A stretch of DNA of 64,000 bases from a virus, in IMG/VR virus record IMGVR_UViG_3300021964_000028, positions 26,682 through 90,681 of that record; one strand, written 5' to 3'. The notes under the pieces are model-generated. The model worked only from the letters and a program-made list of their open reading frames with translations, was not told the origin of the DNA and searched no databases. Position numbers and translations under genes: made by a program. Of the stretch, positions 14,659 through 64,000 are shown piece by piece (position 1 is the first letter of the stretch; each line of letters opens with the position of its first letter).

Positions 14659-16559
14659 AGAAAGAAGAAGAACAAAAACTAGATTCTCTTTTAGATAGCA
14701 TAAGATCCGAAAATAGTGGGTCGAAGAATGTTGTTGTAAAAAAGATTGATCCAAAAAAACTTTTACCAGATGCTTCCAAAAAAACTACTGGCGATCAAAA
14801 CTCTGATGATAAGGCGCTTAAGTCCATACAAAAAGAGTTAGTTGAGATAAAAAAAAGTGTTAATGCTATAGTAGAAGCTTTTAAAAAGCAAAATCAACTT
14901 GCTAGATCTTCAATGGAGAGACAAAGGCAAGCAAAAAATACTAAAAGAAAAAAGGATAGAGAATCGTCTTTAGAATCTAAATCTAATGCAAAACGTGAAG
15001 GTGGTAAAATAGAAAAAGCAATATCACCCTTTGCAGAGTTTTTTGAAAAAATAATGAACTTTTTCAAGTTCATTCTTCTTGGGGGATTTCTTAAAGGACT
15101 TCTTAATATTATAAAAAATCCTAAAATATTATTAAAACCATTACAAAATATTATTAATAGTATTGTTGGATTTTTTAATGGTATTATTAAATGGATTGAT
15201 GATAATGTTATTGGTCCAATAAGAACTCTTATTGATTATATAAATGGCGGAATAAAAAATGTAGTTAATACTATTAATGATATTATTAAAGCATTACCAA
15301 GTTGGTTGCCAAAACCAGACCCAATAGATAATCCGCCAACAATACCACAGATACCAAATCTTCCCCAGATACCTGAAGCGACTTTTGCTAATGATCCAGT
15401 AAAGACTATACCAGTAGTTGCTCAGTTTGAAGAAGGTGGTGAAGTACAAAATATCAATAATTATAACAACGCCAATAACGTCACTAATAGTACAAACAAT
15501 GTCACTAATAGTACAAACAATGTCACTAATAACACTATTAAGGCTGGATCGACTGTTCTTCCGAGAAATAGATCTGTCAATGTTAATGACTTGTCATTTG
15601 CAAAAGGTGGTCAAATCGAAAATGATACTGGACTTACGATTAGTGGTCTGGGTAAAGACACTCAGTTGATTGCTGCTCAACCTGGAGAGGTTGTTATTAA
15701 TGCTAAAGCAGCTGAAAACTTTGGCGTTGATAAGTTATTGACAATCAACGCCAAATATGGTGGACCAGTAGCAAACAAACCTAGAGATGTTGCTTCCAAT
15801 AAGATCAAAGCAATGGCAAGTGGTGGTTATGCTGGTGGAAAGATTAAATACTTTAGTGTTAATGGTGGAGGAAATAAACTTTTAAACCCTGGTCAAACTT
15901 ATACTTATTCTGATTTGAGAATGCATCATAGTGGTCCAACTACTAGAAGAACAGATGGATATCCAAAAGACTATACACTATTACATGGAACTGATTTATC
16001 ATCAGCACCTAATGCAGATATTCCAGTACCACTAGATTCTGAAGTTATATTTAAAGATAAATCTGGGGGATATGGAAGCACTGTAGTTGTCAAGAATGCC
16101 ACAGGAAATATGCTTTTTGCCCACCTTAGTAGAATGGGCAACTTTGGGGTGGGGGATAAAATAAAAGCAGGAACTATCATCGGTACTCAAGGAAGTACTG
16201 GTGGAAACTATGCTGACCATTTACATATGGATGCAGAACCTGCAGGACATGAAGCATTTGTTAACTACATTACTTCAGGAAAACCAACGTTCGGATCAAC
16301 ATCTGCAGCAGGCAAATCTTCATCGGGAGAGATTGAGACTGAAATGAGTAGATCTGGAAGTCTTCAGATTCCATCTGCAGAAAATGTTGATAGTGGAATG
16401 AATTTTCTTAGATCTCTTGGACCTATGTCTGGTCAGATGAAATCTGGTGGAAGTGTAGCAAATACACCGAACCAGAAACCTGTTCCATCATTTAGTTCTA
16501 TTGATCCTGCTAATCCATCTTTGTTGGTCGTAAAATCTATCTATAATCTTGTAGGATAA
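14655..16559 (+). CDS. Baseplate hub/tail protein with M23 peptidase domain
   Basis: 634 residues. Region 1-130 is charged and coiled-coil-like. A hydrophobic amphipathic stretch at about 130-215 (FFKFILLGGFLKGLLNIIKN) resembles that of the next protein. Asn/Thr repeats lie near 275-293. The C-terminal domain at about 420-560 is an M23/LytM-type metallopeptidase: HGTD near 445, FAHLS near 491 and HLHMD near 522 supply zinc ligands. It would cut peptide crosslinks in host peptidoglycan at injection. The first motif has H-x2-D rather than H-x3-D. The stop overlaps the next start. Confidence 0.85.
   Translation: MKKEEEQKLDSLLDSIRSENSGSKNVVVKKIDPKKLLPDASKKTTGDQNSDDKALKSIQKELVEIKKSVNAIVEAFKKQNQLARSSMERQRQAKNTKRKKDRESSLESKSNAKREGGKIEKAISPFAEFFEKIMNFFKFILLGGFLKGLLNIIKNPKILLKPLQNIINSIVGFFNGIIKWIDDNVIGPIRTLIDYINGGIKNVVNTINDIIKALPSWLPKPDPIDNPPTIPQIPNLPQIPEATFANDPVKTIPVVAQFEEGGEVQNINNYNNANNVTNSTNNVTNSTNNVTNNTIKAGSTVLPRNRSVNVNDLSFAKGGQIENDTGLTISGLGKDTQLIAAQPGEVVINAKAAENFGVDKLLTINAKYGGPVANKPRDVASNKIKAMASGGYAGGKIKYFSVNGGGNKLLNPGQTYTYSDLRMHHSGPTTRRTDGYPKDYTLLHGTDLSSAPNADIPVPLDSEVIFKDKSGGYGSTVVVKNATGNMLFAHLSRMGNFGVGDKIKAGTIIGTQGSTGGNYADHLHMDAEPAGHEAFVNYITSGKPTFGSTSAAGKSSSGEIETEMSRSGSLQIPSAENVDSGMNFLRSLGPMSGQMKSGGSVANTPNQKPVPSFSSIDPANPSLLVVKSIYNLVG
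15477..15533 (+). repeat. 21-base tandem repeat in the M23 hub gene
   Basis: About 2.7 copies of a 21-base unit, AATGTCACTAATAGTACAAA plus C (the first copy has C at position 3). It encodes NNVTNST units. Copy number could change by slippage without breaking the frame. Confidence 0.9.
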
Positions 16560-19426
16560 TGGCATTACCACAAATACTAGGAGTAGCAGCAAGATTATTA
16601 GCAAAAGAGGGGGCGAAAGGTCTTACAAAATCTGCTGCCAAAAAAGTAGTTCAAGGAAAAGCTAAGAACTTGGCAAGAGAGAATGTAAGACAATATGCCA
16701 AGAAAAAGTTGAAAGAGAGGATGGTTTCTGGCGGATCAGGACAATCTGTAGGACCAAATATCCAAGAGAAAAAAGTATCAACAGCAAAACTGTTAAACAT
16801 ACCCAAACCTAAAGCACCAAAACTAGGGAAAGGATCTACTGGTAAATCAAAATATTCTCCAATATTAAAAGAGTTATCTTCAATAAATCAAGCACTAAAA
16901 TCACTGCAATCTACTTTAAAAAACTCTCAGAATATTGCAAAAAAAGAAGAAACTAATAGAAGAATACAACAATCCAGACAAAGATATTCGGATAGGGAAT
17001 CTTCATTAGAAGATAAAGATTCTGGTAGCGAAAAATCTGAAAAGGAAGAAGAACAACAATCTCTTGGATTTTTTGATATAATCAAAAGATTTTTTGGAAA
17101 TATTTTAGCTGGTGGATTATTAAAGCTACTTCTTAATAACAAGGACAAGATATTTAAAGGTATCAACCTCGGCATTAAAAACTGGAGGCATATAACCAGA
17201 TTTTTGCTGGGACCAGAACTTAGAAAACCTTTATCTAAACTATTAAAGTTTACTGCAAAGTCTTTATTAAATCCTTTTTACCTTCCAGGCAAAATACTTA
17301 AAGGTAGTATAAAACTATTAGGTAAAGGTATAAAACTAACCTTTAAGGGAATAGCGGGTGCAATAAATCTTGCTATAAAATCTGCATTAAAGGTTGCTAA
17401 AGGCATTATAGCGTCGATTAAAGCTGGTGCTAAACTTGGAGGAAAATCACTTAGGTTGGGTGTTAAAGGTGCTCAAGCAGCAGCTAGATTTGGTAGATCT
17501 GCTCTAAGATTTGGTAATAGAGCAGCTAAAGCATTTACTGGTGCTTTGAAGGGTGGACAAGGATTGAAAGGAGCAACTCAGGCAGTTGGAACTGCCTCTC
17601 AAAGATCTGCTCGTCAATCTGCTGCAATAAGGGCACAAGCACAAAAGGCAAAGGAAGCAAAACAAGCAGCGGAAAAAGCAAAGAAAGCGAAAGAAGCAGC
17701 AGATAAAGCAAAGAAAGCAAAAGAAGCAGCGGAAAAAGCAAAGAAAGCGAAAGAAGCGGCAGCTGCAGCACAAAAGGCAAAAGCAGCATCTAGTGCAGCA
17801 ACAACTGCTGGAACTGTTGCTAAAGCAGCTAGAAGATCTATAAGAATACCTATTATTGGTCCACTTCTAGTTGCACTTGACTCTTGGTTAAGTGGAGATC
17901 CACCAAGTCAAACATTGTTCAAAGCTGGTGGCGCTGCTATTGGTGGATTACTTGGAAACTTTATTCCCATTCCTATTTTAGGAATGATGCTTGGTGAATA
18001 TATTGGTGAGTATGTTGGTAATCTATTTTATTATGGTATCAAAACTCCAGGTGGTTGGAAAAAGGCGGGTGAGATTTTATTTGATGATTTAAAGAAGGCA
18101 TTTAATACTGGTAAACAAGTTCTAGATTGGTTGGGTAAAGGTGTTACCCGTTATGTAACTAACTGGCCAAAACTAAGAATCCCAAATCCAGCTATTCCTG
18201 GTCCATTAAGAGCGGCATTAGAAGCAGCTACATTATGGAGATCTGGTAAGTTTGAAGGGATGCATGATTTCTTAGGTAAGTTTCCTTTAAGTCCGTTTAA
18301 GTTTATTTCTGATAATCAGTGGTTTGGAAACAAGAAAGGTAAGTTCTCACATATTCCAGATCCTTCATTTATGGTTAGAGATCCTGTGGCATTTCTTAAG
18401 CATGTTAAAAACTCATTTATGGGAACTTCTAACGAAAAACCAAACTATACACCACCACCATTAGGTGATATGAAACTTCCTGGTGATGGAAGTGCAACTC
18501 AACCATCGGGAAGTGATGGCAATACACCAAATCCAGCTGCAGGTTTAGATACAAGACTTAGTGTTGGTACTGGGGAGTTTGGTGAAGGACCACTTATTAA
18601 AGCAGCAACTGCTACTGGAATCAAAGGAAAAGAACTTGCTGCTTTCTTAGCACAAATGTCTCATGAAACTGGAGGTTTTCAGTTCCCTAGAGAGTTGAGT
18701 GGAGGAGCATCGCATTATGGTGGTGGTGGTCCTTGGACAGCGCCTAATGGAAAAACTTATAAAGCAAAGTTCCATGGTAGAGGTTATGTTCAACTAACAC
18801 ATGACTACAACTATGAAAAATATGGAAAAATGTTTGGTGTTGACTTGCTAAGCAATCCAGATCTTGCAATGGATGGTGAACTTGCTGCTAAGATCGCAGT
18901 TGCTTATTGGAAGTCAACTGTCAGACCTGTAGTAAATGGTAACTGGGATAATGTATTTTTACATTCAAAAGCGATCAACTATCCTGCTGCGACTAGAGAA
19001 GATCAAGTTAATGGGATGGAAGATAGAAAAGCAAAATATAGAAAATACGTCGAAAAGTTAAATGCTGGTAAGATAACAACACCTGAAGCAACTCCTAAAT
19101 CACCTACAGTTCCTTCGCCAGAGCAACAAGATAATGAAACTGAAAACCCTCGCAGAGCAACTGATAAACTAAATCAATCTACTTCATCTGCGTTAAGTAT
19201 GTCTTCTCCTTCGCAAAAAATGGATACTAGCGTATTGAGTCAAAAAGCATCTTATGAACAAAAACGTGGTGGAATGACTGTACTACCTCTTCCTATGGGA
19301 AATGGCGGTGGAGATTCTTTTGGTGGAGGATCTTCAGTTTTACCATTACCTCCAGGATCTACATCTAAGATGTTAAATAGTTATTATAAAAGTCAACTCT
19401 TAGGCAACTTGTATAAAAACGGATAA
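16559..19426 (+). CDS. Baseplate hub/tail protein with GH19 muramidase/chitinase domain
   Basis: 955 residues. The N-terminal half is helical and amphipathic, with a Lys/Ala repeat at about 365-405. GxxxG-rich hydrophobic stretches lie at about 450-490. The C-terminal domain at about 665-845 is glycoside hydrolase family 19: MSHETGGF contains the catalytic Glu, and GRGYVQLTHDYNYEKYG matches the GH19 signature. It would cut glycan strands of peptidoglycan, complementing the M23 protein just upstream. It is flanked by gp27 and occupies the place where a tail lysozyme is expected. It shares a charged linker followed by hydrophobic helix design with its upstream neighbour. Confidence 0.87.
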   Translation: MALPQILGVAARLLAKEGAKGLTKSAAKKVVQGKAKNLARENVRQYAKKKLKERMVSGGSGQSVGPNIQEKKVSTAKLLNIPKPKAPKLGKGSTGKSKYSPILKELSSINQALKSLQSTLKNSQNIAKKEETNRRIQQSRQRYSDRESSLEDKDSGSEKSEKEEEQQSLGFFDIIKRFFGNILAGGLLKLLLNNKDKIFKGINLGIKNWRHITRFLLGPELRKPLSKLLKFTAKSLLNPFYLPGKILKGSIKLLGKGIKLTFKGIAGAINLAIKSALKVAKGIIASIKAGAKLGGKSLRLGVKGAQAAARFGRSALRFGNRAAKAFTGALKGGQGLKGATQAVGTASQRSARQSAAIRAQAQKAKEAKQAAEKAKKAKEAADKAKKAKEAAEKAKKAKEAAAAAQKAKAASSAATTAGTVAKAARRSIRIPIIGPLLVALDSWLSGDPPSQTLFKAGGAAIGGLLGNFIPIPILGMMLGEYIGEYVGNLFYYGIKTPGGWKKAGEILFDDLKKAFNTGKQVLDWLGKGVTRYVTNWPKLRIPNPAIPGPLRAALEAATLWRSGKFEGMHDFLGKFPLSPFKFISDNQWFGNKKGKFSHIPDPSFMVRDPVAFLKHVKNSFMGTSNEKPNYTPPPLGDMKLPGDGSATQPSGSDGNTPNPAAGLDTRLSVGTGEFGEGPLIKAATATGIKGKELAAFLAQMSHETGGFQFPRELSGGASHYGGGGPWTAPNGKTYKAKFHGRGYVQLTHDYNYEKYGKMFGVDLLSNPDLAMDGELAAKIAVAYWKSTVRPVVNGNWDNVFLHSKAINYPAATREDQVNGMEDRKAKYRKYVEKLNAGKITTPEATPKSPTVPSPEQQDNETENPRRATDKLNQSTSSALSMSSPSQKMDTSVLSQKASYEQKRGGMTVLPLPMGNGGGDSFGGGSSVLPLPPGSTSKMLNSYYKSQLLGNLYKNG
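17669..17768 (+). repeat. 30-base repeat encoding Lys/Ala decapeptides
   Basis: Three near-identical 30-base units encode AAEKAKKAKE or AADKAKKAKE in a row, giving a long charged alpha-helix within the GH19 hub protein. Confidence 0.85.
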
Positions 19427-20727
19427 TGGAAAATAAAGACGTACTATCTGGTAATATTGAAAAGTTTCTTATAACAAGTTTTAAGACCAATGCGTCTATT
19501 GATATTAGTGCTGGCATAACCGACTTAAGATACTATGAAAATATTTTATCCAATACTATAAGTTTGTCTGTTGTATTTACAGACACTGGATATAAGCAAA
19601 ATTCTAATGTTAAAGAATCTATATCAGTTTTAGATGGATTGCCATTAAGAGGTGGAGAAGAAGTTGATATAGTCATAGAAGATGCGAAGGATAATCCAAC
19701 AAGGTTAAAACTAAAACTTTATGTTAATAGAGTTAAAAGTGTAAACTCTAACACCAATACTGAAACTTATATAATCGATTTTTGCAGCGCAGAGACATTT
19801 GCCAACGAACAAAGTAGAGTAGTTGAAAGATATAGTGGTAAGATTTCTGAGAATGTTAAAACTATTTTAACCGATAAACTAAAGACTAATAAAAATATTA
19901 TTCTTGATGATACTCTTGTTGATTATGAGTTTATTGGTAATGATAGAAAACCGCTTCATGTTTGTACTTGGTTAGCATCAAGATCAGTTCCTTCTGGATA
20001 TGGCAAAAAGAATGCCTCTGCTGGTTACTTTTTATATGAAACATCAGACGCATTTAACTTTAGATCTATTGATGGACTAATGAGTCAAAAACCAAAGAAT
20101 CAATATGTTTACAGTGATACTGCTGAAAAGAAAGATGGTTTTGAGAAAGTTTTATCATATGGTATTGATAGAAATATTGACTTGCAGGAGCAACTAATAC
20201 TTGGATCTTACGCTAATAGATCAATATTCTTTGACTTTTATGCTATGGATTATGAGGTTAGAAACTATAGTGTCGATTCAGATCAAAATGGAAAAGCAGT
20301 AAACCTTGGAAAGGATGAAAATAATCATGTTGCAGATCAGTTTAGACAACCGATATCGAGATTAATGTCACATATTCTTGATGTTGGAACTCTTCCTCCA
20401 GGTAAAACTCCAGTATCTCAGTTAGAAAACTGGAAAACTAGTCCATTAAATCCAACTTATGATGTCAAAACCACAATGGTTCAATCAGTCATGAGATATA
20501 ATCAAATGTTCTCTATTAAGATAAATATAGTAGTAGCTGGAGATTTTGGTTTAAAGTCAGGAGATGTAGTTTATTTTGAGTTCCCTCAAGTAAAAGCGGG
20601 AGATCCTGATGTTGATGTGTTGTCTTCTGGCAAATATGTTATTTCCAGTTTATGTCACAGAATAACTTCTGCCGACACATTTACTAGTATGACGCTAGTA
20701 AGGGATACATTTAGAAAACAAAAGTAA
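19426..20727 (+). CDS. 27: Baseplate hub protein gp27
   Basis: 433 residues; T4 gp27 has 391. Its opening, NIEKFLITSFKTNASIDISA then GITDLRYYENILSNTISLSV, is the tube-domain start of cyanophage gp27. Its C-terminus (KYVISSLCHRITSADTFTSM then TLVRD) is also typical. It forms the trimeric hub that carries the gp5 spike. It overlaps the GH19 gene by one base. The next gene has an AAGGAGG site after its stop. Confidence 0.85.
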   Translation: MENKDVLSGNIEKFLITSFKTNASIDISAGITDLRYYENILSNTISLSVVFTDTGYKQNSNVKESISVLDGLPLRGGEEVDIVIEDAKDNPTRLKLKLYVNRVKSVNSNTNTETYIIDFCSAETFANEQSRVVERYSGKISENVKTILTDKLKTNKNIILDDTLVDYEFIGNDRKPLHVCTWLASRSVPSGYGKKNASAGYFLYETSDAFNFRSIDGLMSQKPKNQYVYSDTAEKKDGFEKVLSYGIDRNIDLQEQLILGSYANRSIFFDFYAMDYEVRNYSVDSDQNGKAVNLGKDENNHVADQFRQPISRLMSHILDVGTLPPGKTPVSQLENWKTSPLNPTYDVKTTMVQSVMRYNQMFSIKINIVVAGDFGLKSGDVVYFEFPQVKAGDPDVDVLSSGKYVISSLCHRITSADTFTSMTLVRDTFRKQK

Positions 20728-20737
20728 GGAGGAACAA

Positions 20738-20953
20738 ATGGAAAAGTCAATCGAAGATCATATTGAAAAGGATAAAAAAATCCTTGAAAATCCAATGATC
20801 TCTCCACAAATGAGAAGACACACCCAAGATGAGCTGGAACATCTGGAGTTGTATCATAAAAATCATCCCGAAGACCATCATGATCCAACAGCATTAGAAA
20901 TGTATTGTGACGAAAATCCAGATGCTAACGAATGTAGAATTTACGAAGACTGA
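20738..20953 (+). CDS. Hypothetical protein, 71 aa, His/Glu-rich
   Basis: Strong Shine-Dalgarno (AGGAGG). The protein is charged and His-rich (HLELYHKNHPEDHHDPTALE), with two Cys in the C-terminal acidic part. The clustered His and Asp residues could bind metal, but this is inference. It lies between gp27 and gp5 and overlaps gp5 by one base. It may be a small structural or assembly factor. Confidence 0.7.
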   Translation: MEKSIEDHIEKDKKILENPMISPQMRRHTQDELEHLELYHKNHPEDHHDPTALEMYCDENPDANECRIYED

Positions 20954-23337
20954 TGATTCAAGAAGGGTTTTTAAAAAGTCAGCAAGTAGGACGTGACGGA
21001 TTTGTATGGTGGATTGGTCAAGTTGTTCTTGAAGATCAGTGGGTAGTTAATATTCCTGGTCGTAGAACTGCTACCACTTCAGATCACTTGGGATTTGATT
21101 ATAGATACAAAGTTCGTATTATGGGATACCATACTGCGGATGTTCAAGCACTTCCCGATGAAGATCTTCCTTGGGCAGGTGTAATGCTTCCTGTAACTGC
21201 AGGAACTGGTAATGGTGGAGCTTCTCAAACACCAAGCATTAGGCAAGGTGACTTTTGCTATGGTTTTTTCTTAGATGGTGAAAATGCTCAACATCCAATC
21301 ATTATGGGTTTGATTGGATACAATCAATATGTTTCTATTAGCAAACTTCCTGCTGCTGCCTTTCAACCTTTCAGTGGATATACCAGTAGAGATCTTATCG
21401 CAAGGTATAACTTAAATGTTGTACAAGAACCCGCAAAAGCACAACAAAACCCAGAAGGAGTAACACAACAGCAAGGGCAAGAAATAAATCCACAAGTTAA
21501 TAACTCCAATATTCCAAAAAAGGATGGCGCTTCTGCTGAGCAAGCAATTGATGGATATGAAGCTGAGTATTTAGATTCTGAATGTGAACCAATCGCTATA
21601 AGCAAAATGCAAAGGGATATTAAAAATGCAATCCAAAAAATTGAAAAATATAAAAAAACACTATCAAAATGGGAGAATGCTGTATCTACAAAAGTAAATG
21701 ACATTAGAAATGATCTAAGCACCACAAATGTAACTAACTTTCTTGACAATCTTATTCAGTTTGAGATTGATGGATCAACAAAATCTCTTAGCGAAGTAAT
21801 AAAATGGGTTTTTGTAGAATCACAAAAGTTTGTTACTAAAAAAATAAATGACGCTGCTAAAGTATCTTATTTCAATCTATTTCCAAATCAAAGACCACAA
21901 TTAAAAGAAGGTATTGAGAAAGCTAGTGAAGCGGTAGTTTGTCTTTTTAGAAACTTAATATCCAATCTGTTAAAAATGATTGGTAACTTCTTAAAAGATT
22001 CTTTGAATAAGTTTGTAAATGTTCCTCTTTGTGCCGTTGAAAATCTATTGGGAGGAATTTTTGGTGCTATCACTGGTCTTATTAATGGTGCATTAAATAA
22101 TATTTTAGAACCTATTGCATCTTTACTTGGAAACGCTTTTGATATTGCTGGAGATGTTCTAGACTTTATTACTGAACTTTTATCATTTATTCTTTGTGAC
22201 GAAAAACCAGATTGCGCTAAAACAACCGAATGGAGTATATGGGATGGTCCAGAACCATCTGCAAATCTAGACGTTGCTTCTATTGTTGATAAAGTTAAAG
22301 GTATTGCATCTGCTGTTTCTAACTTTGATATTGATCTAGATTTTATTGGAGACGTAAATCTTGCTGGAATAATTGATAATGTTGCAGGTTGCTTTACTGG
22401 TCCTATCTTGTGTGGTCCTCCCACTGTGACTATCTTCGGTGGTGGTGGTTCTGGGGCGACTGCAAATGCAATCGTTAGCGGTGCAGGAAAACTGATTGGT
22501 GCTGATATTACTGTACCTGGATCTGGATATACTTCTGCACCATTTGTTAAGTTCCAAGATAACTGTGGAAAAGGTAAAGGTGGATTTGGAAGAAGTAAAA
22601 TAGATGATCAAGGACGTGTTGCAAGTATTCAAATAGTTACCTCTGGAACTGGATATTTACCTACATTTGACGGAAGTTATGGTGGTGATGGAAGAACTTG
22701 GGCAGATAAAGATGATACGATTGTTCAGAGAGCAGATGGAACTTGGGATTCTCCTTATGGACCAGGAGAAGAAGTTATATTAAATCCAGGAGATCAGGTT
22801 CTTTTCCCTGGAAATGATACATATGAAGAGATTACTGATGGATCAGTAGTAGTTACACCTCAACAACAGGATCAAGAACAACAGGATCAAGAACTAGTTG
22901 AACCTATTTCAAGTGATGGATCAGTAGTAGTTACACCTCAACAACAGGATCAAGAACAACAGGATCAAGAACTAGTTGAACCTATTTCAAGTGATGGTCA
23001 ATATCCAGTTGTTTTAGAGTTGATTGATGTTATTATAGATAGTCCAGGATATTCTTATAGTATTTCAGATGAAATAACTGTAACACCAGATAATGGTGTC
23101 AGAATATTCCCAATAATCAGTCCTATCGGATCTATTATTGGTGTAACAGTGGCAAGTGGTGGATTTGGATTCACAGACATTCCTGAGATAACAATTAGTT
23201 CTCAAACAGGATTTAATGCAAGACTTACTCCAGTACTAGGAACTAAGTTTGTTGGTGAGCAAGAGATTTCTGAGATTGATGATCCAGAAATCATAACAAA
23301 AGTGGTAACTGTAGTTGATTGTGTAGGTAGATTCTAA
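20953..23337 (+). CDS. 5: Baseplate central spike/hub protein gp5-like, no lysozyme domain
   Basis: 794 residues. The N-terminal 130 residues form the gp5 OB-fold (GRDGFVWWIGQVVLEDQWVV, DYRYKVRIMGYHTADVQALP and GDFCYGFFLDGENAQHPIIM). The middle is helical and amphipathic (about 310-420). The C-terminal third has Gly-rich repeats of the type ADITVPGSGYTSAPFVKF. No T4-type lysozyme domain is visible; cell-wall hydrolysis seems to have moved to the two preceding hub genes. A perfect 78-base in-frame duplication lies near residues 629-681. Confidence 0.8.
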   Translation: MIQEGFLKSQQVGRDGFVWWIGQVVLEDQWVVNIPGRRTATTSDHLGFDYRYKVRIMGYHTADVQALPDEDLPWAGVMLPVTAGTGNGGASQTPSIRQGDFCYGFFLDGENAQHPIIMGLIGYNQYVSISKLPAAAFQPFSGYTSRDLIARYNLNVVQEPAKAQQNPEGVTQQQGQEINPQVNNSNIPKKDGASAEQAIDGYEAEYLDSECEPIAISKMQRDIKNAIQKIEKYKKTLSKWENAVSTKVNDIRNDLSTTNVTNFLDNLIQFEIDGSTKSLSEVIKWVFVESQKFVTKKINDAAKVSYFNLFPNQRPQLKEGIEKASEAVVCLFRNLISNLLKMIGNFLKDSLNKFVNVPLCAVENLLGGIFGAITGLINGALNNILEPIASLLGNAFDIAGDVLDFITELLSFILCDEKPDCAKTTEWSIWDGPEPSANLDVASIVDKVKGIASAVSNFDIDLDFIGDVNLAGIIDNVAGCFTGPILCGPPTVTIFGGGGSGATANAIVSGAGKLIGADITVPGSGYTSAPFVKFQDNCGKGKGGFGRSKIDDQGRVASIQIVTSGTGYLPTFDGSYGGDGRTWADKDDTIVQRADGTWDSPYGPGEEVILNPGDQVLFPGNDTYEEITDGSVVVTPQQQDQEQQDQELVEPISSDGSVVVTPQQQDQEQQDQELVEPISSDGQYPVVLELIDVIIDSPGYSYSISDEITVTPDNGVRIFPIISPIGSIIGVTVASGGFGFTDIPEITISSQTGFNARLTPVLGTKFVGEQEISEIDDPEIITKVVTVVDCVGRF
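22837..22997 (+). repeat. Perfect 78-base tandem duplication in gp5-like gene
   Basis: Two copies with a period of 78 bases (second copy begins at 22915) encode the same 26 residues, GSVVVTPQQQDQEQQDQELV plus EPISSD. I see no base differences between copies, which suggests a recent event. Confidence 0.93.
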
Positions 23338-23957
23338 TGGCAGAACCAGTACGTTGCTACCATACTATTAGATATGGTAATGATCATGGAGAAATAATTT
23401 TTGGACACGTTCATGACGATGAGATTATTTCTGGTTGTCAGATTAGAACTGCAAATGATGGTGGGCGTCATTATATAACTATGGATAGTTCTGGTCTTTC
23501 TGAGACTGGTAGAAAAGGTGGAACTATAATGTCATCACCAGGATCCACTCAGATTGTTTGTGGTATGGATGTCGCAAAAGAAATACCAGCATTTATTACA
23601 ATAGCGAAAAATGGTGATATTGTTTTTAAAGCAAAACGGGGAAGGATCAGATTTATAGCAGAAAATATTGATTTGATTGCTAGTGGATCTGATGGAAAAA
23701 ATGGTAGAATCTTACTAAAAGGTAATGAAAAGGTTAGTATTAAAACTCAAATGTTTGATGTTGATGCTAATGCTTCGTGTAAAATAGTTTCAGAAAATAC
23801 TGTAGATATTATAGGAAAATCTATATTAAATGTTTATGGTGGTTTAATAGATTTTGCTGATGGAGCAACATCTATTAAAGGAGGAAAAGCATTGGGTGGA
23901 TCATTCCCATTCAGTAATGAAATTAAAAACTCACCTATTATTGGAGACTTTTTATAA
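23337..23957 (+). CDS. Spike-like beta-helix structural protein, 206 aa
   Basis: The C-terminal half has short alternating beta-strands (KAKRGRIRFIAENIDLIASG, then VSIKTQMFDVDANASCKIVS) resembling the beta-prism of gp5/VgrG spikes. The N-terminus contains His-rich HTIRYGNDHGEIIFGHVHDD. It starts one base into the gp5 stop, so it may complete the spike as a separate chain. This role is inferred. Confidence 0.65.
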   Translation: MAEPVRCYHTIRYGNDHGEIIFGHVHDDEIISGCQIRTANDGGRHYITMDSSGLSETGRKGGTIMSSPGSTQIVCGMDVAKEIPAFITIAKNGDIVFKAKRGRIRFIAENIDLIASGSDGKNGRILLKGNEKVSIKTQMFDVDANASCKIVSENTVDIIGKSILNVYGGLIDFADGATSIKGGKALGGSFPFSNEIKNSPIIGDFL

Positions 23958-24923
23958 ATGGCGAAACTACCTGATTGTCATATAACTAAGAGACTCTTTG
24001 TTGGCGAAGGTTTAGCCGCATGTCTAGGAGTATCTGCAGCTGAGATTCGTGGTTCTGCATATATTGAAGGTCCTGCCGTTGTAGGTGTCCCATTAAAGTT
24101 TCTTCCATATGAAGCTGGGGTGATGATCAGTAATGTTCAAAATACTGATATGCTTGCAGTACCAGCTCCAAGTATTGTAAAAATACGATCTACATCAGTA
24201 CCAACACCGATTGATGTAGTTATTGGAGATATTGCTGGACCTGTAGGAGTTAATATCTTCTGTGGTCCTATGCCATTTGTTGTTTCATCAACATCTATTT
24301 CTTTAAATACTTTATTGCGATTTGATGTTTCTAACTTTGACTCAAAGGTTGCATCTCTAAAATCTGATATTGGAGCAAAGTTTTTTGCAGGAACAAAACT
24401 TGAAACTGGATTTGATTCTAATCTGGGATTAGCATTTAATGCGGCACCTTTATTTGGTGAAGCTCCAGCAGCATATCCAGACTTTGCTAGTGATGCTACA
24501 ACTTTAAACACAACTTACGGTATTGCTCTTTCTAAAAAACCATTTGATATTTTACACCCAACTAAGGATGGACATAGACTTAGATATGTTTCTTTAGAAG
24601 GACCAGCAGCAGAAGTATATTGTAGGGGTAAATCTACTTCTGATGTTATTGATCTGCCAGATTATTGGTTGGGATTGGTTGAGGAAGATTCTATAACCGT
24701 TAACTTAACTTCAGTTGGTAGTGATCAAAATCTATACGTCAAAGAAATTGTAGACAACAAGATTTATGTTGGTGGTGGAGTATTGATGAATGGAGAAAGA
24801 TTATTTAAGTACCACTATACAGTATTTGCAGAAAGAAAAGATACTGAAAAGAATATTCCAGAATATAAAGGGTTGACACCAGATGACTATCCAGGCGATA
24901 ATAGTGAATATAGATTGAGTTAG
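23958..24923 (+). CDS. Tail-fibre-like structural protein, 321 aa
   Basis: The region around residues 195-270 (HPTKDGHRLRYVSLEGPAAE then VYCRGKS, DLPDYWLGLV, NLYVKEI) is a module I know from many marine phage tail proteins. The N-terminus carries a Gly/Ala-rich beta-like segment. Placed directly after spike genes, it is probably a baseplate or fibre component. The start follows the preceding stop without a gap. Confidence 0.7.
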   Translation: MAKLPDCHITKRLFVGEGLAACLGVSAAEIRGSAYIEGPAVVGVPLKFLPYEAGVMISNVQNTDMLAVPAPSIVKIRSTSVPTPIDVVIGDIAGPVGVNIFCGPMPFVVSSTSISLNTLLRFDVSNFDSKVASLKSDIGAKFFAGTKLETGFDSNLGLAFNAAPLFGEAPAAYPDFASDATTLNTTYGIALSKKPFDILHPTKDGHRLRYVSLEGPAAEVYCRGKSTSDVIDLPDYWLGLVEEDSITVNLTSVGSDQNLYVKEIVDNKIYVGGGVLMNGERLFKYHYTVFAERKDTEKNIPEYKGLTPDDYPGDNSEYRLS

Positions 24924-24924
24924 A

Positions 24925-25602
24925 ATGAAAAAAGTTCATGAGTTATTTCCTCTGGTAATCTACCAGGGAAGTTTGGATTGCCATGAAGAGTTTAAAAGAG
25001 ATAATATAGAAAGTTTAAAGAAGTATTGGTTTAATGGTTATGAGCATGAATCTCCAGAAGCGTCGTCAAATATTTTTGCCCATTTAAATACTGACTATTC
25101 TGTGTTCTTCAAATCACTTAGAAAGGTATTTGATGATTATTTTGATACGTTGAATATAAAATATGATAGATTAAGTTATCATATATGCAAATCATGGGTT
25201 GTTTATCATAGAGATGATACTACTCCGCCAATGGCACCACATAATCACAATGAGGCAAATATAAGTTTTGTGTATTATTTAAATACTGACGAAACTTCTG
25301 ATAGATTTGTTGCTATGCAAATGAATAACAGTAATGAAGTATGTCAAGGATTCTTTGATACTGCTGACGTACATAACCTCATGACAAACTTCAATAGATA
25401 TAACTGCAATAACTATACAATAACTCCTATAGAAGGTTCTGTTATTGTAATGCCTACTCAAACGTTCCATAAGACTATTAAAAAGAAAGCTAGAACAAAT
25501 GAAAGAATTGCTATTGCTGGAGATGTTCGGGTTACTTTAAAACCAGAACATTTTAAACATCATCAAGGTTGTACACATCCCTCACAATGGTTGGAAATAT
25601 GA
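24925..25602 (+). CDS. 2-oxoglutarate/Fe(II)-dependent dioxygenase-like protein
   Basis: 225 residues. H106-N-H108-N-E110 (APHNHNEANISFVYYLN) matches the iron motif of the small 2OG-Fe(II) oxygenase family common in cyanophages. GSVIVMPTQTFHKTI has the second iron His at 182, and NERIAI has Arg194 for 2-oxoglutarate. The substrate is unknown. Its position within tail genes suggests hydroxylation of a virion protein or a moron-like acquisition. The stop overlaps the next gene. Confidence 0.82.
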   Translation: MKKVHELFPLVIYQGSLDCHEEFKRDNIESLKKYWFNGYEHESPEASSNIFAHLNTDYSVFFKSLRKVFDDYFDTLNIKYDRLSYHICKSWVVYHRDDTTPPMAPHNHNEANISFVYYLNTDETSDRFVAMQMNNSNEVCQGFFDTADVHNLMTNFNRYNCNNYTITPIEGSVIVMPTQTFHKTIKKKARTNERIAIAGDVRVTLKPEHFKHHQGCTHPSQWLEI

Positions 25603-25925
25603 CGTATAAGATTGTAAATGATTCTAGAAAACCTATTTTAATAAAACATTCTGAAATATGTTCCCCTCCACCAAATGATCTTCTCATAGATGATGTTGAT
25701 ACATCTTATCCAGGGATTGTTATTAAATACGAAAATGGTTATTTGATTGAAGATGGTGTTCATAGAATGGCAAAACTTCAAAAACAAGGAATATTTGAGT
25801 CTCTATTTTATGTTGTAAGTATTGAAGAATATAGGAATGGAATGGTTTCCATGAAGTATCGAGAAACTTTTATAACTCTAGGTGCATGGAATCATAACTT
25901 TTTATCGCCAAGACCTCACAAATAA
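25599..25925 (+). CDS. ParB/Srx-like small protein, 108 aa
   Basis: Begins at the ATGA overlap (25599). The segment GIVIKYENGYLIEDGVHRMA then KLQKQG resembles the ParB/sulfiredoxin core, where a DGxHR loop binds nucleotide. It is paired with the 2OG oxygenase gene. Assignment is tentative and the function is unknown. Confidence 0.55.
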   Translation: MTYKIVNDSRKPILIKHSEICSPPPNDLLIDDVDTSYPGIVIKYENGYLIEDGVHRMAKLQKQGIFESLFYVVSIEEYRNGMVSMKYRETFITLGAWNHNFLSPRPHK

Positions 25926-25928
25926 ATA
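25921..25928 (+). promoter_or_regulatory. Late-promoter-like box
   Basis: AATAAATA overlaps the stop codon of the previous gene, 27 bases before the next ATG. Confidence 0.5.
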
Positions 25929-25954
25929 AACCATAGCAATGTTATGCGGAAGAA

Positions 25955-27583
25955 ATGGCTAAAAAAAGGAATGTTGAATCTATCGATAAGATTACATCCC
26001 AACTTATTACTGATAAGGTAGATATTGATAGATTTGCTAGAGAGCAAATAGTTACTTTAGAAACTGCTAAAGTACCCTATCAAGAGGCATCTAAAAATTT
26101 AGATCTTTATTTGCTTGAAAGTTGTCAAGAAGTAAATACTGCTTATGAAAATGTAGAAAAATCTTATCAAAAGAGAATAGATGCTGGCGGTGCCAGTGAT
26201 TTATTTTGGAGGATTGTGGGAGTATCTAGTCTTACTTCTACTACTCCAAATCCGAATACTGGACCACAAACAAAAGTTGTCGGTGTTTCATATGAGTTAA
26301 GATGTGAACGTTTGTCGAGAACGTATGATGCACAAGAAAATGTTGGATCAGGTTCTTCCACTTTTGATTTTAACCCTTCTAGCGTTCAAATATATCTTGG
26401 GAGAGAAGCGGGTATTGGTGATCAGCAACCATTAACGTCAGCTGGTAGTGATATGGATAGTGTTTTTAAACCTGTCAATCTTCATGGGATAAAGATAGAT
26501 ATAGAACCATATAGTAGAGATGTTCTCGAAACTTATGTAAATGTTTCGATTGGAACCGCTGATCTTGGAGGAACAAGACTATTTTTAGGTGAAATATATG
26601 ATGATATTGAAATTGGACAGTTAGTTTCTTCAGAACCACAAATCTTATTTCCAGACTCTGGTGTTAATATTGTAACTGGCGTTGGTACTGCAATCGCAAA
26701 TCTTACAGGAATACCAAATACTTCTGGTGTAAATGGTGAGATAGTGACCTATGTTGATTTACGAGACCCCGTAACTCAACTTGTAACTGCTCCATTATTT
26801 GATGGGCAATATCCGACATTCACATTTTCAATATCTCCAGATCAAGTCTCTGATAGTATTTCTGTTGGTGAACGTGATAGTCCTTATGAGCTTCAACAAG
26901 TGAAAAAAATGGTTGCATCTGATGCTGGAACAGGTGTAGAAGTAGAATACGATAACTCTGGGGTGGAAGTGTATAATGCAGAATGGCCACATTTTATGGA
27001 CGGATATCCAGACCCTAAGAATGTTAGTCGTATTATTAGAGAACCTAAAGTTGGAAGTGGAAAAGTATATTATCCAATTGGATTTGATAGAAAACCTTTG
27101 AAAGCTAGTGGTGGTAATGCTGCTGAGGGAGATACCAGAACAATATCGGAGTATATTTCTACATTTGGTGGATTTTTTGATCCTAACTCACCACAACATC
27201 CAGATTTTGTCCCCGCATATAGTAGTCAACTTAACAATACTCCAGAAATAGATGCTGAAATAAAATCTAATGAAACTGAAGCTTTACAAAAAGAGAGTTC
27301 ATTGAAATATAATGATGAGTTTTATAATAGTATTTCTCTTGCCAACAAAATAAAAAAGGAATATAATGATTTTAATATTAGAATATGGGCATATAGAGTT
27401 CAAATCGGAAAAGCTAAACAGGAAAAACTAGAAAAAGAAGAGTTTAAAACTCTTATCAATAATGATACATATAAACCTGTTGCCAATACTGGAGGGCCTC
27501 CAGTAGTAGATAGAAACTATCCAATGTCTTCTAATACCACTTTAATGACTTCGGCAGTTTTGACATTTGATATCACTGTATAA
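25955..27583 (+). CDS. Virion structural (baseplate-region) protein, 542 aa
   Basis: No domain recognised. The N-terminus is helical (KITSQLITDKVDIDRFAREQ); the middle is beta-rich and Gly/Ser-rich. The segment NAEWPHFMDGYPDPKNVSRI is distinctive. A helical stretch at about 430-510 is followed by a conserved-looking end (MSSNTTLMTSAVLTFDITV). Located between spike and gp9-like genes and preceded by a late box, it is probably a cyanophage-specific baseplate protein. Confidence 0.65.
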   Translation: MAKKRNVESIDKITSQLITDKVDIDRFAREQIVTLETAKVPYQEASKNLDLYLLESCQEVNTAYENVEKSYQKRIDAGGASDLFWRIVGVSSLTSTTPNPNTGPQTKVVGVSYELRCERLSRTYDAQENVGSGSSTFDFNPSSVQIYLGREAGIGDQQPLTSAGSDMDSVFKPVNLHGIKIDIEPYSRDVLETYVNVSIGTADLGGTRLFLGEIYDDIEIGQLVSSEPQILFPDSGVNIVTGVGTAIANLTGIPNTSGVNGEIVTYVDLRDPVTQLVTAPLFDGQYPTFTFSISPDQVSDSISVGERDSPYELQQVKKMVASDAGTGVEVEYDNSGVEVYNAEWPHFMDGYPDPKNVSRIIREPKVGSGKVYYPIGFDRKPLKASGGNAAEGDTRTISEYISTFGGFFDPNSPQHPDFVPAYSSQLNNTPEIDAEIKSNETEALQKESSLKYNDEFYNSISLANKIKKEYNDFNIRIWAYRVQIGKAKQEKLEKEEFKTLINNDTYKPVANTGGPPVVDRNYPMSSNTTLMTSAVLTFDITV

Positions 27584-53780: not shown

Positions 53781-53844
53781 ATGATTCCATTGTTGACGAA
53801 TGTCAAGGAGTTCAAATCAAATAACAACAAATCAAAATAGGACC

Positions 53845-53873
53845 TTGCCTAGCGGTCCTTTGGGTGCTATAAT
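53845..53873 (+). promoter_or_regulatory. Sigma70-like promoter of the helicase gene
   Basis: TTGCCT (53845-53850), a 17-base spacer, then TATAAT (53868-53873). An AGGACC/GGTCCT hairpin overlaps the -35 region. It would start RNA near 53880, downstream of the ATG at 53800 of the long frame. Confidence 0.7.
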
Positions 53874-53898
53874 TCATTCATACGCAACAGAGACTACC

Positions 53899-55128
53899 TT
53901 GACCATCTCCCTTCGTCCTCACCAGCAACGTGCTTGCGATGCTATGCTGGCATTTGACAAGGGTCAAATCATTGTTCCTACTGGTGGAGGCAAGACTCTT
54001 GCCATTATTACTGATGTCAAAAATATCTTTGATTCCAACGATGGTGCTAAAACTATTGTTGTAGTTGTTGCTCCACGTATTCTACTTGCAGAGCAACTTT
54101 GTTCTGAGTTCCTTGAGCATATTGATAATGTTGCTGTGATGCACGTTCACAGCGGTGATACTAAGCATTTTAGTAGCACCAAACCAAATGCTATTCACAA
54201 TTGGTCATATCGAGCATACAGTAAGCAACTAATCTTTACCACATATCATTCCCTGCATCGTATTAAAGAAGCAGGTCTAAATGTTCACACCATTCACTTT
54301 GATGAAAGTCACAACTCAGTCCAGAAAAGTTTCTTTCCTGCCACAGAGTATTTCTCTGCTAATGCTAACCGCTGCTATTTCCACACTGCTACTCCCGTTC
54401 ATTCTGCGGTTGCTAACAAACCTGGAATGAACGATGGTGAAGTTTATGGGGATGTAATCTACAAGGTTCCTGCACCTGAACTTGTTAATGGTGGTTTTAT
54501 TGTTCCTCCACTCGTCAGTGTGAAGCAACTTGACATTGCTTCCTCTAACGTGTTTGAGAGAGATTGTAAGCACCTTCTAGAGACCATTGAGAGTGAATCT
54601 ATTCACAAGGGTCTTATTTGTGCAAAGTCTACAAAAATAATCGTTGGTCTTGTTTCTAACACTAGTTTTGTGGAGGAAATGAAAGAGCGTGATTATTCTG
54701 TACTTTACATCACATCTAAGACTGGTGCTGTCATTGATGGCAAGAAAGTGAAGCGTGATGTATTCTTCAAGACTCTAAATGCTTGGGGTAAGGACAACGA
54801 CAAAAAGTTTGTTGTCCTTCACCATAGCATCATTTCTGAAGGTATCAATGTCAGTGGACTAGAAGCAGTTATTTTCATGCGTTCTATGAACTACATTGGT
54901 ATTCTTCAAAGTGTGGGACGCACATTGCGTCTACATCTTGAAGATGCTCAAGGTATGCGAGATGGTACTATTCCTGCTGGACAGTACCATCTTTATCGCA
55001 AACCTTTTGGTAAAGTTGTGATTCCTGCCCATGATAAGGTTGGCATCACAACTGCCAAAAAGATCCAAAACGCACTTGACATTGTATTCCAGCAAGGTGA
55101 AGTGTGCGAAACCATTATCAAACGATGA
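53899..55128 (+). CDS. SF2 DNA/RNA helicase, TTG start
   Basis: 409 residues from TTG 53899 (MTISLRPHQQRACDAMLAFD); the open frame reaches back to 53800 but crosses the promoter. Walker A PTGGGKT is at 27-33, the DEAD-type box is DESH at 135-138, and motif VI is QSVGRTLR. RPHQQRA is the Q-like motif near the start. It belongs to the UvsW/type III restriction-helicase-like group, which acts in recombination or fork processing. It lies upstream of the restriction-like cluster, but separate promoters suggest independent roles. Confidence 0.87.
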   Translation: MTISLRPHQQRACDAMLAFDKGQIIVPTGGGKTLAIITDVKNIFDSNDGAKTIVVVVAPRILLAEQLCSEFLEHIDNVAVMHVHSGDTKHFSSTKPNAIHNWSYRAYSKQLIFTTYHSLHRIKEAGLNVHTIHFDESHNSVQKSFFPATEYFSANANRCYFHTATPVHSAVANKPGMNDGEVYGDVIYKVPAPELVNGGFIVPPLVSVKQLDIASSNVFERDCKHLLETIESESIHKGLICAKSTKIIVGLVSNTSFVEEMKERDYSVLYITSKTGAVIDGKKVKRDVFFKTLNAWGKDNDKKFVVLHHSIISEGINVSGLEAVIFMRSMNYIGILQSVGRTLRLHLEDAQGMRDGTIPAGQYHLYRKPFGKVVIPAHDKVGITTAKKIQNALDIVFQQGEVCETIIKR

Positions 55129-55797: not shown

Positions 55798-56339
55798 TTA
55801 TGACCTACACATTTAACGGTGGTATTCAAACAGGCACAGTTGCAACTGATGCCCGTGCTCGCAAACTTGACGAGCAATGTAAGCATGTGAAGAAAACTAT
55901 TCTTCCTATTATTTCTGCGATCTATCCTGAAGTAACTATGCAGATCAGACTTACTAAAGCACAGATTCCTGGCAGTAAAGGTGCTTGCGAACCCGATGGT
56001 GGTTTGTGGTTCTACAAAGGCAAACTGATTTCAGTGTTTGAAGGTAAGAAACAGCAGGATCGAGGTAATGCTATCGAACGCTGGTTCAAAAACAACTATA
56101 TTTGCCGAAAGATCAATTCTGAGGTGAGTTATGTCACTTTCTGTACTGGTGAAGGTGCATATGATGATGGTACGATTGGCAAAACCCTGCATGTTGCTCA
56201 TCTTGCAGGAGTGAATCAGTATAATCCTGGAGATAACTCTGTATTTTACAATACAGACTGCTTTACACGAGAGTTTATTTCTGATACAATGCTAGAAGTG
56301 CTCTCAGAGCGTATTCAATCGGTAGATCTATCTCAATGA
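55770..56339 (+). CDS. EcoRI-like type II restriction endonuclease
   Basis: 189 residues. P75-D76-G-G, then E91-G-K93 (KLISVFEGKKQQ), then R98-GNAIERWFKN, corresponds in order to EcoRI PDGG...EAK...GNAIERSHKN (catalytic Asp91, Glu111, Lys113). A strand and Gly-rich stretch, VSYVTFCTGEGAYDDGT, match EcoRI YVLFLEGSN. It is shorter than EcoRI (277 residues). It would cut double-stranded DNA at a specific site. The methyltransferase start overlaps its stop (ATGA). ATG 55800 is an alternative start. Confidence 0.83.
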   Translation: MANRNQSSLIMTYTFNGGIQTGTVATDARARKLDEQCKHVKKTILPIISAIYPEVTMQIRLTKAQIPGSKGACEPDGGLWFYKGKLISVFEGKKQQDRGNAIERWFKNNYICRKINSEVSYVTFCTGEGAYDDGTIGKTLHVAHLAGVNQYNPGDNSVFYNTDCFTREFISDTMLEVLSERIQSVDLSQ

Positions 56340-57175
56340 AACCTTTATTCATCTGGGCAGGTGGTAAAACAAAGGTGCTAAAACATTATGCACCTTTTAT
56401 GCCATCTGCCCCTTTTTCTACATATTATGAACCATTCTTTGGTGGTGGTGCAATGTTTGTCCATGTGATGAACACATATAAACCAAAGAATGTTGTCATC
56501 AATGACATCAACGATGATGTGATGAACATCTATCGTTCGATTCGTAATGAATATGATGAGTTTATTGATAGAGTCGATAGTTTAGAATCTCAATATCTGC
56601 CATTGAGCAAAGAAGATCGCAAGAAGTTTTATTTTGATATTAGACATCTTCATGCATGGAACTATCAAGAATGGAGCAAACCATTTGAAGCAGCAACACT
56701 ATATTTTTTGATGAAGACTGGATTCAATGGTATCTATCAACTGAACAAGAATACTAATGGAAGGTATGGAACACCTGCTGGATTGCTGAACCAGAAGGAT
56801 AAGATCTATGATCGCTCTGTGATGCTATGGTGGAAACAAGCACTGCAAAGTGTAGATATTCGCTCTGGTGATTGGAAAGATGCCGTAACTGATGATCCTG
56901 ATGGTTTCTTCTTCTTTGATCCACCATATCGTGATAGTTTTGCAGATTATGGCAATGGATTTGATGAGCAGGCACTGCTAGACCTTATCGACTTTGCCGA
57001 TGCACAAAATACAGTTTTTGTTGCTAACCGTGCAGATGATAACTGGTTTGATGATAAATCAAAGTCATTAAATGTTCATTACTTTAACATCACATACACT
57101 GCTGGTCGTAGGAAGAAAACAGCAACAGGATATGCTGCAAAGCAAGCGCGTGAAATCCTACTTTACAAACCTTGA
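56336..57175 (+). CDS. DNA adenine methyltransferase, Dam/D12 class
   Basis: 279 residues. FIWAGGKTK (5-13) and YYEPFFGGGAM (30-40) form the SAM-binding FxGxG region. DPPYRDSF (195-202) is the N6-adenine catalytic motif. KTGFNGIYQLNKNTNGRYGT is the typical Dam-type helix before target recognition. The target is not readable; D12 enzymes often modify GATC. It is coupled to the EcoRI-like gene, so it may protect phage DNA from that enzyme. Many cyanophages have such a gene alone. Confidence 0.93.
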   Translation: MKPLFIWAGGKTKVLKHYAPFMPSAPFSTYYEPFFGGGAMFVHVMNTYKPKNVVINDINDDVMNIYRSIRNEYDEFIDRVDSLESQYLPLSKEDRKKFYFDIRHLHAWNYQEWSKPFEAATLYFLMKTGFNGIYQLNKNTNGRYGTPAGLLNQKDKIYDRSVMLWWKQALQSVDIRSGDWKDAVTDDPDGFFFFDPPYRDSFADYGNGFDEQALLDLIDFADAQNTVFVANRADDNWFDDKSKSLNVHYFNITYTAGRRKKTATGYAAKQAREILLYKP

Positions 57176-63334: not shown

Positions 63335-63592
63335 ATGACTTTTCCTTACATTAACATCGACAATAGCACTCTTGGCAATCACACTTCTACCTTTTTCAAG
63401 GTAAGTGCTGATGCTCAAGAATCATGGATTAACGGTATCTTCCATAACTCAAGGTATGGAATCTTCTGTCTTGCTGATGGTAAACTAGAGTTAATCTCCA
63501 AAGGATTAAATACTGCTAAGTTTCGCAAGTGTAAATGTAGTGACCAAGAGACTGCATTCAATAAGATTAAACAATGGATGGAAAAGTTTTGA
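63335..63592 (+). CDS. Conserved cyanophage hypothetical protein, 85 aa
   Basis: MTFPYINIDNSTLGNHTSTF then RKCKCSDQETAFNKIKQWME. Beta-rich with a C-terminal helix. It is the last gene before the non-coding right end. Confidence 0.72.
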   Translation: MTFPYINIDNSTLGNHTSTFFKVSADAQESWINGIFHNSRYGIFCLADGKLELISKGLNTAKFRKCKCSDQETAFNKIKQWMEKF

Positions 63593-63607
63593 TCTAAAAT
63601 AACACTT

Positions 63608-63635
63608 AAGAGAGGATAAAACCTCTCTTTTTTTA
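63608..63635 (+). terminator. Rho-independent terminator
   Basis: AGAGAGG and CCTCTCT around ATAAAA, followed by six T residues. Marks the end of the early gene run. Confidence 0.9.
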
Positions 63636-63673
63636 TATTAAATGTATTAAAAAATATAGTTAAGTGTTTTATC

Positions 63674-63717
63674 TTTTCCACAATAGGTGTGGAAAACCCT
63701 GTGTATTGTGTGGAAAA
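63674..63717. other. Three perfect DnaA boxes, candidate replication origin
   Basis: TTTTCCACA on the plus strand at 63674-63682 and on the minus strand at 63688-63696 and 63709-63717. The first two form an inverted repeat 5 bases apart. TTTTCCACA is the cyanobacterial DnaA box. The stretch lies in gene-free, AT-rich DNA beside tandem repeats. Confidence 0.6.
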
Positions 63718-63735
63718 CTTATGATTTATTGTCTC

Positions 63736-63814
63736 ATTTAATGTACTCATAAGATGGTGAAATAACTGATTTAATGTACTCATAAGATGGTGAAATAACT
63801 GATTTAATGTACTC
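63736..63814. repeat. 33-base tandem repeat
   Basis: Two full copies and a partial third, each starting ATTTAATGTACTCATAAGAT, at 63736, 63769 and 63802. Non-coding. Confidence 0.92.
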
Positions 63815-64000
63815 AGGTCTCATTAAATGCTTCATTAAATGTACTTAAGATCTCATTAAATGCCTCATTAAATGTACTCAGGTCTTGTTAAATGTACTTA
63901 AGATCTCATTAAATATCTCATTAAATGTACTCAGGTCTTGTTAAATGCCTCATTAAATGTACTCAGGTCTTGTTAAATGTACTCAGGTCTTGTTAAATGT
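63811..64000. repeat. Short-repeat (iteron-like) array reaching the window edge
   Basis: Five copies of ACTCAGGTCT (63811, 63876, 63929, 63961, 63981), two of the variant ACTTAAGATCTCATTAAA, and ten TTAAATG. The final units repeat every 20 bases. The array continues past the window. No coding frame is plausible. Confidence 0.9.

Follow-up and report, generated by a model that had tools for sequence, protein, structure and literature searches.

A conserved intergenic module with phased DnaA boxes is a candidate replication origin of T4-like cyanophages

T4-like cyanophages rank among the main causes of death of Synechococcus and Prochlorococcus. We know of no use of host DnaA by phage T4 itself for replication. 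The T4 origin oriF is annotated between uvsY and gene 25 in the T4 record and, in its minimal form, consists of a promoter and an AT-rich element at which the RNA makes an R-loop; oriE contains 12-nt iterons and depends on an early-type (sigma-70) promoter (PMC3016281). Cyanomyoviruses lack motA, and a review cites a single theta origin predicted for Syn9 (PMC2984593). In cyanobacteria, the sequence TTTTCCACA is a documented DnaA box, with origins tested in Cyanothece and Anabaena (PMC4674748), which makes it reasonable to read a cluster of such boxes as a DnaA-dependent origin. In Escherichia coli, the cores of DARS1 and DARS2 carry box I opposite to boxes II and III at equal spacing (PMC5742627), and the start-to-start offsets that we measured on K-12 DNA are 14 and 12 bp in both. 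In the open-licence papers that made up the literature searched, we found neither a mapped replication origin of T4-like cyanophages nor an earlier account of the module described here.

The DNA analysed, hereafter the window, is a stretch of 64,000 nt that spans positions 26,682–90,681 of the IMG/VR record IMGVR_UViG_3300021964_000028; the locus lies at its right end. The left flank of the surrounding syntenic block contains a DNA helicase (53800–55128, plus strand; phrog_16 DNA helicase, E 1e-56) and a DNA adenine methylase (56336–57175, plus strand; phrog_56 DNA methyltransferase, E 4e-66). The helicase is placed like the gene annotated 'helicase' in cyanophages and like T4 UvsW, the counterpart of the methylase is annotated dam in S-RIM2 and S-SSM5, and the gene order matches that of S-RIM2, Syn9, and P-SSM7. 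The last gene encodes a small protein of 85 aa (63335–63592, plus strand; phrog_3308, E 6e-39), and a predicted intrinsic terminator with an 8-bp stem and a T run (63608–63637, plus strand; hairpin 63608–63629) separates it and the other upstream genes from the module. Next comes an AT-rich stretch, TTATATTAAATGTATTAAAAAATATAGTTAAGTGTTTTAT (63633–63672), a candidate DNA-unwinding element by nearest-neighbour energy: this 40-mer is among the least stable of the window, with only 0.02% of positions as weak. Three exact copies of TTTTCCACA follow, i.e., box I (63674–63682, plus strand), box II (63688–63696, minus strand; 14 bp from box I, start to start), and box III (63709–63717, minus strand; 21 bp from box II). 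To their right, a repeat search detected a 33-bp tandem repeat (ATTTAATGTACTCATAAGATGGTGAAATAACTG; 63736–63815) and an iteron-like array of TTAAATGTACTCAGGTCTTG units (63802–64000). The earlier note had described three perfect boxes within 44 bp, two of them as an inverted pair, followed by repeats in gene-free DNA, and each element of this description was borne out.

The earlier note had also judged so close a grouping very unlikely by chance. A simple Poisson estimate agrees, giving approximately 1e-6 per window for three boxes within 44 bp, and the window contains six TTTTCCACA 9-mers compared to 1.5 expected from shuffles. The further perfect sites are single ones, at 8547, 22564, and 50880, all on the minus strand, and amount to a mild window-wide enrichment. 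An antisense ORF that runs through the boxes (63415–63783) belonged to no family in its own right, its matches mirroring the plus-strand gene, so a minus-strand gene at this place was rejected. An Rfam search of the stretch gave no credible match, with eukaryotic snoRNA models scoring far below threshold. Elsewhere in the window, a perfect 78-bp tandem duplication with 15-bp repeats inside (22836–22997) probably lies in a coding region.

The repeats right of the boxes are regular in the first part and irregular in the second. The 33-bp unit is present in 2.4 perfect copies, while TRF reported periods of 12, 20, 32–33, 53, and 85 for the array (about 63802–64000). The array carries ten TAAATG cores, at 63824, 63836, 63857, 63869, 63889, 63922, 63942, 63954, 63974, and 63994, i.e., in steps of 12, 20–21, or 33 bp. 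The right edge of the window coincides with the terminus of the 90,681-bp record, so that the assembly breaks off within the array. The earlier note had looked to the sequence beyond this edge; the record itself cannot supply it, but two IMG/VR relatives, L007 and L008, start in the array and show its continuation. Both run rightward from the array into small genes, and L007 also encodes proteins that we take to be gp25- and gp6-like, judging by their sequences and by the shared order of genes. In both relatives the array terminates in ..AGGTCTTGTGATCTTAG, and in others (L393, L405, L406, L408) the segment TTAAATGTGCTCAGGTCTTGTGATCTTAGCG is present once or a few times between the boxes and the edge. 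Given these low copy numbers and the shared ending, the array of the window is best read as a local expansion of the TTAAATGTGCTCAGGTCTTGTGATCTTAGCG segment.

We scanned viral contigs for the pattern TTTTCCACA(0-30)TGTGGAAAA. Among the matches listed, total lengths clustered at 21–23, 32–33, and 43–44 bp, and one match was the complete phage P-SSM7. The reversed-sequence control in viral contigs, where one 28-bp class dominates among the matches listed, was set aside. A blastn search from the P-SSM7 site found the region in 235 cyanophage records. Among isolates selected by similarity to this site, the inverted pair occupies the same place in P-SSM7, S-CAM22, S-RIM2, S-SM1, S-SSM5, S-BM1, S-RIM12, and S-CAM8, i.e., past the small-gene cluster of the uvsW-helicase/dam region, with gp25/gp6 a few kb further on; Syn9 and S-PM2 have it there likewise, at 52.6 kb and 19.2 kb, respectively. 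In a second set picked by name only, the exact pair was found in Syn9, S-PM2, S-ShM2, and Syn19 and a one-mismatch pair in S-SM2, but no pair was found in P-SSM2, P-SSM4, S-SSM7, S-RSM4, P-RSM4, or P-HM1; nor was it found in S-CRM01 and ACG-2014f. Perfect boxes are scarce in the pair-bearing genomes of approximately 170–200 kb (two to seven in the first eight isolates, four in Syn9, eight in S-PM2), and in each of these ten the inverted pair sits at the module place; in S-SSM5 it accounts for both perfect boxes. Many T4-like cyanophages therefore have boxes at the orthologous place, as the earlier note's proposal needed of close relatives, and the observation is confirmed as extending from one phage to a conserved module. 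The stretch in the window is the left part of this module. The DnaA-dependent origin proposed in the earlier note gains from the conservation and from the identity of the box with a documented cyanobacterial one; the arrangement is not confined to this phage.

Two observations concern the surroundings of the module. In S-PM2 (AJ630128, 17414–19333), tRNA genes are annotated of which tRNA-Asn and tRNA-Leu overlap the DnaA-box triple; ARAGORN found no tRNA in S-PM2 15000–26000, and the annotated coordinates look misplaced. In most of the T4-like cyanophages examined, a near-invariant, single-copy element, CTACCCTAACCTACARAGG (seen in L213–L219 and L008), is found in the interval from the module to the genes that precede gp25. 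We discarded it as a module anchor, as many loci with it have no boxes within 1.3 kb despite its single copy in the isolates that carry it; its presence at box-less loci indicates that it belongs to the neighbouring conserved promoter region.

We then gathered modules independently of the boxes, through the conserved right edge (TTGTNNNCTTAGCRNGY..GTCAA), and removed near-duplicates, leaving 85. Within 250 bp left of the edge, at least one perfect box was present in 57 of the 85 modules and at least two in 47. In total, 119 perfect boxes were seen compared to the 0.7 that the remainder of those contigs would predict, and TTTTCCACA was the most recurrent 9-mer of the 85 stretches. The remaining 28 modules had no perfect box nearby, so the boxes are common rather than universal. 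Spacing was strongly constrained: same-strand boxes lie 11–12, 21–22, 32, or 42–43 bp apart and opposite-strand boxes mainly 12–14, 23–26, or 34–36 bp apart. This corresponds to phasing near 10–11 bp (R = 0.96 for the same strand, 0.75 for opposite strands), which none of 2000 random sets equalled in strength. The 14/21 geometry of the window recurs in L393 and in other viral triples.

The ligand of these boxes is expected to be host DnaA. No Bac_DnaA_C domain was detected in the 13 phage records searched (the window record and 12 cyanophage genomes), whereas search controls were positive in 12 of 14 reference genomes; without a phage-encoded DnaA-like DNA-binding domain (domain IV), the host protein would be the candidate. 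Larger cyanobacterial genomes have TTTTCCACA at dnaN in steps of 11, 20–22, or 30 bp. In contrast, about a dozen dnaN loci of small genomes, probably picocyanobacterial, had no perfect box, and among genomes of 1.6–2.4 Mb, again probably picocyanobacteria, phased clusters were found only in four (G039, G120, G128, G153). Inheritance of the inverted pair from a host oriC was rejected, since no more than 3 of 194 cyanobacterial genomes contain an exact inverted TTTTCCACA pair; the phage arrangement would thus not be a simple copy of a host origin. Some cyanobacterial chromosomes carry a +,−,− cluster of TTTTCCACA at one place, for example, as we take it from translations, between a priA-like and a principal sigma-factor gene (L165, L189) or beside guaA (L159, L169, L204); these clusters could be oriC or a DARS/datA-like site. 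Several chromosomal sites, not dnaN alone, carry direct triplets stepping by 21 bp (e.g., G047:C2:195734 and G123:C2:18150); these are perhaps DnaA-control sites.

The lack of boxes at dnaN regions of probable picocyanobacteria bears on the possibility that the phased sites bind a phage or host protein other than DnaA whose target is coincidentally similar, serving an origin or promoter control. The one-mismatch variants within modules point the same way in part, as they fall at positions 1, 2, 6, and 7 besides the positions 3 and 5 that DnaA tolerates. However, modules favour one variant, TTATCCACA, which is the best DnaA box of E. coli, and both sequence and spacing equal those of cyanobacterial origins. 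We regard a protein other than DnaA as distinctly improbable.

Several further features would suit an origin. Box-bearing modules are less stable than their own loci (KS p 6e-10). A ATGTATTAAAAAATATA stretch similar to that of the window adjoins the boxes of S-PM2 and of IMG/VR relatives; the window has a strong AT-rich minimum, Syn9 and S-SSM5 a moderate one, and in P-SSM7 and Syn19 it is not marked. The right edge falls into two spacing classes, the long one exceeding the short one by a helical turn (approximately 12 bp). Members of the long class have TTGAC(A/T)-17-(TGA)TANNNT on the minus strand, a leftward sigma-70-type promoter-like sequence; TGn is present in 40 of 47 members and at least four of six positions match TATAAT in 31 of 47. 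The leftward sequence of L393 matches at 11 of 12 positions with TG, and L007 and L008, which are nearest to the long class, have a poor -10 (TAGTGA), located beyond the window record. The corresponding -10 of the short class is weak (TAAGAC). Within approximately 100–150 bp there follows a rightward TTGACA-17 promoter-like sequence. The predicted leftward transcript would cross the iterons, the boxes, and the AT-rich stretch and then enter the terminator region, without any gene lying in that orientation. Folding 100 unique sequences of the right edge gave no consistent structure, and a conserved hairpin there, whether RNA or DNA, was rejected.

Since the module lies in an oriF-like neighbourhood and unites DnaA boxes with iterons, a promoter-like sequence, and, in several of the phages, an AT-rich element, a replication origin is its best single explanation, and we put a DnaA-dependent origin of T4-like cyanophages at about an even chance. 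We infer that host DnaA would bind the phased box cluster and that RNA made from the leftward sigma-70-type promoter, which relatives show on the right edge, would pass through iterons and boxes into the AT-rich stretch. Binding and transcript together would open the duplex, whereupon the phage T4-type replisome would be loaded and initiation could proceed; the RNA might prime the leading strand in the manner of T4 oriF. In favour are the cluster of DnaA-consensus boxes, helical phasing as in oriC, and the location near uvsW/uvsY and gene 25, with the theta origin predicted for Syn9 as outside support. Against it count the 28 box-less modules, the isolates without the pair, the unmarked AT-rich minimum of P-SSM7 and Syn19, the poor -10 of the short class, and the lack of boxes at dnaN loci of probable picocyanobacteria, which leaves the use of TTTTCCACA clusters by the likely hosts in doubt. 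Cumulative GC skew gave no support either: four genomes showed no origin-like minimum here, a measure that is confounded by nearly all genes lying on one strand. Taken together, anatomy and comparison partly support the DnaA-origin interpretation.

The same promoter-like sequences could mean that the cluster is an operator through which DnaA tunes divergent module promoters, one leftward and one rightward toward the genes before gp25. Relatives have such sequences beside the cluster on both strands, helical-turn spacing fits protein contacts on one face of the DNA, and triple clusters with 21-bp steps also exist at cyanobacterial chromosomal sites with no dnaN neighbour. Yet the boxes lie approximately 60–190 bp from the promoter-bearing edge, in no fixed position, the leftward transcript would meet a terminator and has no gene to express, and the AT-rich stretch and iterons are left unexplained. 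Transcriptional regulation is therefore rather unlikely in our estimation.

Box number and geometry also bear on titration of DnaA, which the earlier note had raised as an alternative. Boxes multiplied with the phage genome would draw off host DnaA, so that host initiation stops; each genome brings three boxes of the high-affinity type, genome copies are many late in infection, and likely hosts have few competing clusters. It is one of several DnaA-based readings, however, and with only two to four boxes per module, neither the conserved geometry nor the single conserved place would be needed for it, nor is the rest of the module explained. Titration is conceivable, and we give it very little weight.

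The box geometry suggests one further reading, which the earlier note had not foreseen. The three boxes could assemble ADP-DnaA head to head as in a DARS, so that ADP is released and host DnaA is recharged with ATP, which would either serve the phage's own origin, in the way that the ColE1 origin is served by its DARS, or disturb host replication. The +,−,− order of the window with 14 bp between boxes I and II is that of the E. coli DARS1/DARS2 core, the offsets being 14/21 in the window, 13/12 in S-PM2, and 14/12, 13/12, 23/12, or 24/12 in other viral triples. Such a triple was present in 22 of the 85 modules (and in mirror order in 4 more), compared to none of 2476 background segments. However, many isolates (S-RIM2, S-CAM8, P-SSM7) have the inverted pair only, at 23 bp, without box III; general helical phasing of DnaA boxes would yield such offsets fairly often; and a DARS core has no use for a leftward promoter, iterons, and an AT-rich stretch. 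To our knowledge, DARS occur in enterobacteria and none has been demonstrated in cyanobacteria. As shared DnaA–DnaA geometry could suffice and many isolates are pair-only, we rate a DARS-like element below an origin and consider it doubtful. A composite, in which a cyanophage DARS-like recharging element is fused to an iteron and promoter origin, such that a lytic phage activates the host initiator and then uses it, is also rather improbable.

If the module is an origin, it would suggest that this T4-like branch ties initiation to the host DnaA cycle, unlike T4. Being conserved, confined to a single place, and equipped with host-type DnaA boxes, it provides an exact address for origin tests. 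It would also offer a probe of origin recognition by picocyanobacterial DnaA.

Compared to known systems, the module combines features of several. With T4 oriF/ori(uvsY) it shares the neighbourhood of uvsW and gene 25, not immediate adjacency, and, in the long subclass, it has a promoter-like sequence that would point into a candidate AT-rich unwinding element as the T4 promoter does. T4 oriF differs in that this promoter is a MotA middle promoter and that the minimal form, as published, lacks DnaA boxes, whereas the cyanophage module has phased DnaA boxes and iterons and is separated from the helicase/dam genes by about a dozen small genes. T4 does contain two perfect TTTTCCACA copies in 169 kb, one of them (AF158101, 115853) 532 bp from the annotated oriF, probably by chance. 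Like oriE, the module has an iteron cluster and an early-type (sigma-70) promoter-like sequence; its repeats differ from the 12-nt iterons of oriE in stepping by 12 or 20–21 bp, in sequence, in lying beside DnaA boxes, and in map position. Iterons as such are nothing new among T4-like phages, being already present in oriE (PMC3016281).

Cyanobacterial oriC, with TTTTCCACA beside dnaN, has the identical box and the same 11-, 21-, or 22-bp spacing, but the chromosomal clusters are mostly direct repeats and the phage site has neither dnaN nor dnaA beside it. The E. coli DARS1/DARS2 core and the ColE1 DARS likewise have three DnaA boxes with box I opposite to II and III; the I–II offset of 14 bp is that of the window, and the 13/12 of S-PM2 is close to 14/12. 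The full 14/12 pattern is not matched by the window, where box III is displaced outward by about one helical turn (21 rather than 12 bp), and, unlike the E. coli elements, the cyanophage module also exists in pair-only versions.
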